From assembly GCF_963676935.1 (NCBI RefSeq), contig NZ_OY781470.1, positions 2,514,680 through 2,578,679 of the forward strand: a stretch of DNA of 64,000 nucleotides, in the 5' to 3' direction. Position numbers and translations under genes: made by a program. Positions 57,044 to 59,020 of the stretch are shown here, piece by piece. Position 1 is the stretch's first letter; each line of letters begins with the position of its first letter. Under the pieces are notes generated by a model. It did no database searches. It saw only the letters and a list, made by a program, of their open reading frames with translations, and was not told the origin of the DNA. The DNA is from Halarcobacter sp. Its GTDB lineage: Bacteria > Campylobacterota > Campylobacteria > Campylobacterales > Arcobacteraceae.

Positions 57044-57772
57044 ATGAAATTTTTGTCAGTTTATAAACAATTTCTAATATTCTTTATCATAACTATACTT
57101 CTTAGTGGATGTGCTCAAAAACGAGATTATGAATATACAGGTTCAAATACTCAAACAGGAGCTATTATTGGAGGTATATTAGGAGCATTGATTGGTGCAA
57201 GCACAAAAGGCAATAGTAAAGCAAAAAGAGCTCTTATTGGTGGAGTAATTGGAGCATCAGTTGGGGGAGCAATTGGTTATTCTATTGAGAAGCAAGCAGA
57301 AGATGTAGCAAAAGAACTTGATACAAAAGTTGATAATAGTTCTGATGCAATTAAAAATGAAAACAAAGACTTAATTGTTTCAAATACAGATAAATATGTA
57401 AAAATCACACTAAAAGAGAGTATGGTATTTGCAACAGATTCAGCTTATCCTACTAATGAAGCATCACAAAGAATTAATAAAATCTCTAAGGTTTTAAGAA
57501 ATTATCCTAACACTACTGTGCAAGTTGTAGGATTTACAGATAATAGAGGAAGCTATTTATATAATCTTAAACTATCAAAAAAAAGAGCTTTAAACGTAGG
57601 ACAAGTATTATATGAAAGTGGAATTACAAATGAAGTGTTTTCAAAAGGATGTTCTTACGAAAAACCTATAGTTCCAAATGATTCTTTGGAGAATATGGCT
57701 TTAAATAGAAGAGTAGAAATATATCTATATCAAGATGTTAATAAAATAGTCGACCCTTGTAAAAATTATTAA
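57044..57772 (+). CDS. OmpA-family lipoprotein with glycine zipper
   Basis: 242 residues. Lipoprotein signal with lipobox LLSGCAQ (Cys24). Two glycine-zipper segments, TGAIIGGILGALIGAST and ALIGGVIGASVGGAIGYS (about 36-85). The OmpA-C peptidoglycan-binding domain (about 120-240) has VVGFTDNRGSYLYNLKLSKKRA and LNRRVEIYLY. It anchors the outer membrane to the cell wall. RBS AGGAGT precedes the ATG. Confidence 0.9.
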   Translation: MKFLSVYKQFLIFFIITILLSGCAQKRDYEYTGSNTQTGAIIGGILGALIGASTKGNSKAKRALIGGVIGASVGGAIGYSIEKQAEDVAKELDTKVDNSSDAIKNENKDLIVSNTDKYVKITLKESMVFATDSAYPTNEASQRINKISKVLRNYPNTTVQVVGFTDNRGSYLYNLKLSKKRALNVGQVLYESGITNEVFSKGCSYEKPIVPNDSLENMALNRRVEIYLYQDVNKIVDPCKNY

Positions 57773-57796
57773 AAATTTTAAAATTTTTAATAATTT
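57763..57796. terminator. 34-bp all-A/T palindrome after the OmpA-family gene
   Basis: AAATTATTAAAAATTTT is followed directly by its perfect complement, giving a gapless 17-bp palindrome seven bases before to 24 bases after the gene end. It probably acts as a weak terminator. Confidence 0.45.
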
Positions 57797-57829
57797 CACT
57801 TTTTTCACACTATTTTTATTTAGAATTCT

Positions 57830-57994
57830 TTTGGATTTGTACCCTAACAAAATCTACTTTTATCTAAAGGTTAAATCCTTTAGATTTTAAGCCCGAGGTT
57901 TATCTAGTAGATATTAATTGAACGATAAAACAAAAATATTAAAAAAATTTAAATCATTAAGCTATAAAGGGTTAGCCACCTTTATAGCTTTTTT
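57830..57994 (+). ncRNA. Candidate structured RNA or attenuator upstream of the methyltransferase
   Basis: A promoter-like TTTAGAAT lies at about 57819-57827. Next come a nested structure and a terminator. An outer stem joins ATCTACT (57852-57858) and AGTAGAT (57906-57912). Inside it is the hairpin ATCTAAAGG / CCTTTAGAT (57862-57870 and 57877-57885). The transcript would end in AAGCTATAAAGG / CCTTTATAGCTT (57959-57970 and 57979-57990) plus T-run. No ORF is present. It may be a small RNA of about 165 bases, or a 5' leader with an attenuator for the gene at 58010. No known RNA family was recognised. Confidence 0.4.
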
Positions 57995-58009
57995 AGATAA
58001 ACTTCTATC

Positions 58010-59020
58010 ATGAAAAAAGAAAAATTTAGTGATTACTTCAACAAGTGGCTATACAGTAACAACGGATACTATTCAAACTATAAAACAATTGGTAAAGAAG
58101 GGGATTTTTTCACTTCTGTTTCAACCTCATCTTTTTTTGGTGGTTCAATAGGTAAAAAAATTGTTGATACTATAAAAAAAGGTACCTTACCCCAAAATAC
58201 AACTATTTTAGAAGTGGGTGCGCATCATGGTTATTTGCTTGCTGATATTATTCAATTTATCTATACCCTTGAACCAAAACTTCTTGATACACTTAATTTT
58301 GCCATTGTAGAAAGATTTGAAAACTTACAAATACAACAAAAAAACTATTTAGAAAAGTCTTTTGGTGATGCCATAAAATTAACTCATTATAAAGATATAA
58401 GTGAAGTTGTTTTACCCCACGCTTTTATAGTTGCAAATGAGATATTTGATGCCTTTGCATGTGAATTAGTATATACAAAAAATGAACAATTAAATATGGC
58501 ATTTGTAAAGAACCACAAGATATTTTTTGAACCCTGCAATGATGAAAAGATTATAAATCATTGTAAAAAATATAAGATTGAAAAGGGGGAGATTGCAATT
58601 GGTTATGAAGATTTTGCCCAAACTATATGCAAAAACATAAAAAACTTTTCTTTTTTAACTTTTGATTATGGAGATAGAATCCCTAGAAATGATTTTTCTA
58701 CAAGAATCTACTTTAAACATGAAGTTTTCCCAATTTTTGAAGAAAAATTAAAACTTGAAAATTACTATTTAAAAGCTGATATAACTTACGATGTATATTT
58801 TAAACACTTAAGTGATTGTTTTGAGAAGCTAAATGTAAAAAATATAACTTTTAAAACACAAGTTCAAGCCTTGATTGATTTTGGGATTACTGAACTTTTA
58901 GAACTTTACAAAAAAAATGTAGATGAAAACTCATATTTAAGAGAATCACAAAAAATAAAAACATTAATTGAACCAACAGGAATGGGGGATAGATTTAAAA
59001 TGCTACTTATTGAAAAGTAG
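58010..59020 (+). CDS. MidA/NDUFAF7-like SAM-dependent methyltransferase
   Basis: 336 residues. The start FSDYFNKWLYSNNGYYS followed by GDFFTSVSTSSFFGG and the SAM-binding segment ILEVGAHHGYLLADIIQF match COG1565 (MidA/NDUFAF7), whose mitochondrial member methylates an arginine of complex I. IVANEIFDAFACELV is the second family motif. The bacterial target is unproven. The ATG follows a terminator hairpin by 15 bases and lacks a clear ribosome site. Confidence 0.8.
   Translation: MKKEKFSDYFNKWLYSNNGYYSNYKTIGKEGDFFTSVSTSSFFGGSIGKKIVDTIKKGTLPQNTTILEVGAHHGYLLADIIQFIYTLEPKLLDTLNFAIVERFENLQIQQKNYLEKSFGDAIKLTHYKDISEVVLPHAFIVANEIFDAFACELVYTKNEQLNMAFVKNHKIFFEPCNDEKIINHCKKYKIEKGEIAIGYEDFAQTICKNIKNFSFLTFDYGDRIPRNDFSTRIYFKHEVFPIFEEKLKLENYYLKADITYDVYFKHLSDCFEKLNVKNITFKTQVQALIDFGITELLELYKKNVDENSYLRESQKIKTLIEPTGMGDRFKMLLIEK

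Follow-up and report, generated by a model that had tools for sequence, protein, structure and literature searches.

A predicted small RNA of Halarcobacter with a 3′ module also found behind cytochrome and porin genes

In enterobacteria, Hfq-dependent small RNAs carry a 3′ module composed of a hairpin, a single-stranded A/U-rich stretch and a terminator with a U-tail, which is common to free-standing small RNAs and to those derived from 3′ untranslated regions (3′ UTRs). To our knowledge, Helicobacter pylori has no Hfq, and its small RNA RepG reportedly pairs through a C/U-rich loop located in the terminator loop. RepG is described as a regulatory RNA that targets a G-repeat in an mRNA leader (PMC8295292). 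The absence of Hfq is also mentioned in a discussion of Campylobacter jejuni (PMC3847290), where the small RNA CJnc230 (FlmE) is described as encoded behind a protein gene, co-transcribed with it and, in addition, expressed from a promoter that lies downstream of that gene (PMC11187230). The matches listed in our literature search include no paper devoted to Arcobacter small RNAs, except for a genome-wide motif study by Stav et al. (2019), which presents intergenic motifs from Arcobacter sp. L that are confined to Arcobacter and left unnamed in that presentation (PMC6429828). Here, we describe a stretch of non-coding DNA of Halarcobacter sp., a member of the Arcobacteraceae, that is predicted to encode a small RNA. 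The stretch lies in a window, the whole of the DNA analysed, that comprises 64,000 nucleotides of contig NZ_OY781470.1.

We interpret this RNA as a free-standing small RNA whose tail module is also present, in related bacteria, at the 3′ ends of cytochrome and porin mRNAs, with the methyltransferase gene next to it transcribed separately, a reading to which we assign a probability of roughly 0.65. The RNA would be about 160 nt long (57833–57994) and would be made from its own predicted promoter, the start at 57833 being predicted from the spacing to a −10-like box, TAGAAT. No −35 match accompanies this box, and a sigma-70 scan, which gave 10 promoter-like sites where shuffles gave 12.3, does not list it. 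It is situated within 237 bases without a gene, between the stop codon of an OmpA-like lipoprotein gene (57044–57772; Pfam OmpA and glycine zipper) and the ATG of a methyltransferase gene (58010–59020; Pfam Methyltransf_28). There is no ATG on the + strand of 57773–58009, and the two TTG-started frames present there, of 19 and 31 codons, are both lost, as judged by eye, in G006, one of the relatives (G002–G108; G000 is the genome holding the window). A terminator scan of 2 kb on both strands gave 2 sites, with 0.7 expected, and the site that closes the RNA is the sole one on the + strand; 15 bases without a Shine-Dalgarno-like stretch separate its T-run from the ATG at 58010. An earlier sequence-only reading had pointed to a gene-free stretch, to a 12-bp terminator stem with a T-run and to a gene without a ribosome site 15 bases further on, all of which hold, and its proposal of an independent small RNA is supported by the conserved block, the promoter-like box, the terminator, the lack of an ATG-started frame and the other neighbourhoods of the RNA in relatives. 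A conserved promoter-like box and an intrinsic terminator enclose a non-coding stretch, the arrangement looked for in a small RNA, and the position of the RNA behind the ompA-like gene, the terminator of which it shares, is by sequence that of a 3′-UTR-type small RNA.

A DNA search with the RNA retrieved G010 at 94% identity over almost the full length and G002, G006, G007 and G004 over the 3′ part. Besides an upstream box identical over 25 bases, the G006 locus has TACAAT as its −10-like box, a 5′ hairpin whose loop contains CCCTA, both arms (TTATC/GATAA) and the terminator. The setting differs: the flanking genes, for a response regulator and a porin-like protein, are both on the other strand, and no same-strand gene stands directly in front of the RNA. 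The terminator pairs covary, with 98.1% of 108 cells paired and double changes in six of nine pairs; on each of five measures, the observed value exceeded that of all 500 shuffles, and slid versions of the pairing gave at most three double-changed pairs. The fold of 57826–57997 has an energy of −37.8 kcal/mol (z −3.66, equalled by 0 of 200 shuffles), and the z-scores in G010 and G006 are −2.40 and −5.35. The nested stem proposed from the sequence alone is, however, not conserved as such, because the outer helix (57852–57858 with 57906–57912) acquires a C.A mismatch in the 94%-identical G010 and is absent from the G006 fold. The structure that is kept in relatives consists of the terminator, the small 5′ hairpin with its CCCTA loop (in 3 of 3 genomes; z of the hairpin alone −1.56 in G000, −1.34 in G010 and −3.22 in G006) and the TTATC/GATAA arms (in seven loci). 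Covariation, which had been suggested as a check, was found for the terminator pairs but not for the inner stems.

Chance structure in AT-rich DNA, with an ompA-like terminator devoid of any RNA function, is a highly improbable explanation. It would fit the blastn-type search with the region, which returned matches at E ≤ 10 in all 60 genomes searched, mainly short pieces of the A-rich linker, but it is contradicted by the fold z-scores in three genomes, the terminator covariation, the conserved upstream box and the hits of an RNA model outside its training set (see below). The features of the locus are listed in Table 1.

Table 1. Features predicted at the small RNA locus, with window positions and the basis of each assignment
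Feature	Position	Strand	Basis
Upstream box ATTTCACTTTTTTCACACTATTTTT, two TTTCAC-like repeats	57793..57817	+	25 bases identical in G010 and G006; flanking genes differ in G006
−10-like box TAGAAT of the small RNA	57821..57826	+	TAAAAT in G010, TACAAT in G006; alignment of G000, G010 and G006
5′ hairpin GGATTTGT-ACCCTA-ACAAAATCT, C-rich loop	57833..57855	+	Hairpin and CCCTA loop in G000, G010 and G006
Lineage-specific hairpin ATCTAAAGG/CCTTTAGAT	57862..57885	+	Fold of G000; 8-bp version in G010; different hairpin in G006
Upstream hairpin of the 3′ module, GGTTTATC...GATAAAAC	57897..57931	+	Arms kept in 7 loci; hairpin of different sequence in other loci
A-rich linker ending in conserved AATTTAAATCATTAAG (57946–57961)	57930..57961	+	Alignments and pattern search
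Intrinsic terminator, 12-bp stem with 8-nt loop (57959–57990) and T-run	57959..57994	+	Scan and covariation
Separate −10-like box TAAACT of the methyltransferase gene	57998..58003	+	6 bases before the ATG at 58010

The 3′ part of the RNA is a module that recurs elsewhere. The genomes compared comprise 16 of the genus and 88 further members of the family, 104 in all. A first RNA model, R1, built from three sequences, matched 6 of the 104 genomes at E < 1e-4, three of which had supplied the training sequences. Model R2 of the 3′ module was built from 12 sequences, with E < 1e-5 as the cut-off for membership; weaker matches, among which L117, L118, L125 and L137–L140 were inspected, were not counted. 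R2 identified 17 places in 13 of the 104 family genomes: one each in G000, G010, G006, G004, G002, G011 and G013, four in G007 and two in G008 within the genus, and G090, G029, G024 and G108 beyond it. Five of the 17 (G007d, G008b, G029, G024 and G108) lie outside the training set; G008b, misplaced in the MAFFT alignment A7 and dropped before training, was recovered by the model. In an even sample of 298 genomes from the order, scored under stricter filters, four reached E < 1e-5 with R2, and all four belong to the family. The linker pattern AAWTTAAATCAYTAAG, which was picked after some copies had been seen, has 14 matches in the 16 genus genomes, compared with 3 for the reversed pattern, and a terminator follows 11 of the 14; the other three, one each in G000, G010 and G002, lack a following terminator and were excluded. 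Support for the hairpin upstream of the linker is weaker: its mean z is −1.37 at the 17 loci against −0.24 at 118 control terminators (Mann-Whitney p 4e-4).

Seven of the 17 modules stand behind a small c-type cytochrome gene (G007a, G007d, G008b, G013, G024, G090 and G029, where the gene is decayed), two behind a porin gene located after a small c-type cytochrome gene (G002 and G007b), one in tandem after the G007b copy (G007c) and two behind molybdopterin-oxidoreductase-like genes (G004, and G108 by resemblance only); the ompA-like gene precedes the module in G000 and G010, and the remaining three places (G006, G008a and G011) have other neighbours. The cytochromes of G007a and G024, the porins of G002 and G007b and the oxidoreductases of G004 and of the G007d locus were checked against Pfam, and the other neighbours are named from protein searches or resemblance. 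The tandem modules of G007 (L083, 1326–1601) start 188 bases apart, between the porin gene and a gene for a MarC-like membrane protein; the G007d copy (L123) also precedes a MarC-like gene, named by eye.

This distribution bears on a rival interpretation, in which the module is a 3′-end device only, its terminator, hairpin and A-rich linker shielding abundant mRNAs from nucleases, and the copy in the window serves the ompA-like mRNA as its 3′ UTR without acting in trans. In its favour, 12 of the 17 places follow a cytochrome c, porin or molybdopterin-oxidoreductase gene or are tandem copies of one that does, and another two follow the ompA-like gene. The scan found no + strand terminator between the ompA-like stop at 57772 and 57959, so the ompA-like mRNA probably has this RNA as its 3′ end as well. 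Furthermore, the terminators of the ompA-like genes of G006 (L125) and G014 (L118), both at about 1501–1617, match R2 weakly (E 4.7e-4 and 0.0057) and could be related to the module, either distantly or as decayed versions of it. Nevertheless, we consider it unlikely that the module is such a device and nothing else. The 25 upstream bases are identical between G000 and G006, where no same-strand gene directly precedes the RNA; the conservation of the linker exceeds what termination needs; and of the ten cytochrome-paralogue ends listed, six, in five genomes, have no linker, three have the module and one (G002) is followed by the porin gene. The module as a feature of any cytochrome end was rejected on the same data, the six loci having ordinary hairpins or none. 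In G029 (L135, about 1240–1500), the element is retained almost unchanged behind a cytochrome c gene that has lost its start and carries frameshifts, and the 96-base element is 96.9% identical to that of G090, compared with 80.7% for the cytochrome gene, which suggests, without proof, that the element is maintained in its own right.

Several observations weigh against a free-standing small RNA with a conserved module. Between G000 and G010, the segment 57797–57832, to which the −10 box and the greater part of the upstream box belong, has 86.1% identity, below both flanking genes; at 93.9%, the RNA itself is only slightly above them (ompA-like 90.8%, methyltransferase 87.1%). In the window, the upstream hairpin of the module is weak (z −0.52). 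Across the seven sequence-anchored loci, its covariation does not go beyond what conservation yields, as 149 of 500 shuffles score as high, and the hairpin was rejected as a covarying helix. The linker pattern is not enriched outside the genus, where it and its reversed control have 5 matches each in the 88 family genomes. At E < 1e-5, R2 finds no module in 7 of the 16 genus genomes, so that the module is not essential. The last 90 bases of the decayed G029 gene are still 92.2% identical to G090, which makes the contrast between element and gene modest. Separately, the upstream box pattern TTTCACNNTTTTCACA was considered as a general regulator site and rejected: it occurs once in G000 and is not enriched, since the reversed pattern has 19 matches and the box itself 17, in 15 of 60 genomes; among the nine matches examined, those outside G000, G010 and G006 are all at unrelated places.

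The sequence-only reading had offered, as an alternative, an attenuator or riboswitch-like leader of the methyltransferase gene. This idea draws on the terminator, which lies 15 bases 5′ of the ATG in G000 and likewise in G010, and on a 12-base arm of the RNA (57895–57906, at the conserved GAGGTTTATCTA) that is 92% complementary to 57994–58005, just past the terminator stem. However, the stretch complementary to this arm is the −10 region of the methyltransferase gene itself, and the complementarity is probably due to chance. The methyltransferase gene was matched once per genome in all 16 genomes of the genus, whereas the RNA lies directly 5′ of it in two only, G000 and G010, and is found at other sites in G006, G002, G007 and G004. 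In G006, it is 2 kb upstream of the methyltransferase gene, with the porin-like gene, so named by resemblance, on the other strand in between; in G014, the ompA-like and methyltransferase genes are adjacent and a terminator alone separates them, matching R1 (E 0.0025) and R2 weakly. Moreover, all 16 genomes have TAAACT-N6-ATG (57998–58010 in the window; loci L031–L046), the ATG being the aligned start or an in-frame ATG at most 24 bases upstream of the aligned part, with the frame determined by arithmetic. Given a −10 box 6 bases before the ATG, transcription should start on the ATG itself; the position of the box is conserved and, if it is used as predicted, the methyltransferase mRNA is probably leaderless across the genus, which would explain the missing ribosome site. 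No conserved sensing fold was found, the outer helix not being kept in G010 or G006, and no search aimed at anti-terminators was made. Neither the window nor any of 10 related loci matched an Rfam family at the gathering score. Taken together, a leader function for the methyltransferase gene is extremely improbable.

At relaxed thresholds, Rfam matches were at chance level at best (top E 0.36), and a scan for tRNA and tmRNA was negative. The RNA family is likely, but not certainly, new. It may overlap with the unnamed motifs of Stav et al., which are likewise intergenic and are confined to Arcobacter (PMC6429828).

Returning to the free-standing small RNA, we propose that it has two origins: its own promoter and, probably, the 3′ end of the ompA-like mRNA. 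Its 5′ part would be variable and structured, with a small hairpin exposing a C-rich loop (ACCCUA), and its 3′ module would consist of a short hairpin, an A-rich single-stranded linker ending in AAWUUAAAUCAYUAAG and the intrinsic terminator. Terminator and linker could stabilise the 3′ end and offer a common site of interaction, and the loop of the 5′ hairpin, which is unpaired, the linker or both may pair with target mRNAs near ribosome sites, as in the 3′-UTR-type small RNAs of the phylum; the methyltransferase would be expressed from a separate leaderless mRNA. Hfq was detected in 0 of the 16 genus genomes (the controls rang in 5 of 14), CsrA in 0 of 16 and ProQ above the cut-off in 0 of 16, with one sub-threshold ProQ match, containing internal stops, in G014. 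Consequently, a chaperone role of the linker would require another protein. That the hairpin, linker and AAWUUAAAUCAYUAAG-terminator module docks an undescribed RNA-binding protein replacing Hfq, ProQ and CsrA, and is the common mark of co-regulated small RNAs and 3′ UTRs linked to outer-membrane and anaerobic-respiration genes, is a speculative extension that we regard as quite unlikely.

C/U-rich loops (TTCTCTCC, TTGTTCTCC and TTCTTCTCCC, identified by eye) are present in hairpins before the module in G006, G002, G007b and G007c (L004, about 1403–1460; L003, about 1385–1470; L083, about 1270–1340 and 1456–1500), and are complementary to the ribosome-site-like GGAGA. The 3′ end of the porin-like gene of G006 has a similar C/U-rich loop, on the other strand.

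A 3′-UTR-type small RNA is a kind of RNA that is already known. Among the papers listed, CJnc230 is the closest parallel to the window RNA, being likewise encoded behind a protein gene in a host described as lacking Hfq (PMC11187230, PMC3847290); the likeness drawn here is one of gene arrangement, and the targets of CJnc230 are known, whereas the window RNA is predicted from sequence alone. RepG belongs to the same phylum, and some of the module loci also have hairpins with C- or C/U-rich loops. In the window RNA, however, the C-rich loop is in the 5′ hairpin, whereas that of RepG is said to be in the terminator loop. The enterobacterial Hfq-dependent RNAs differ in their chaperone, Hfq not having been found in any of the 16 genus genomes. 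Among the matches listed, the small RNAs of Arcobacter relatives have hardly been studied, and the RNA described here bears on the question of how base-pairing RNAs act without Hfq, ProQ and CsrA. The module common to this free-standing RNA and to the 3′ ends of cytochrome and porin messages would be a bait for a binding protein, if one exists.
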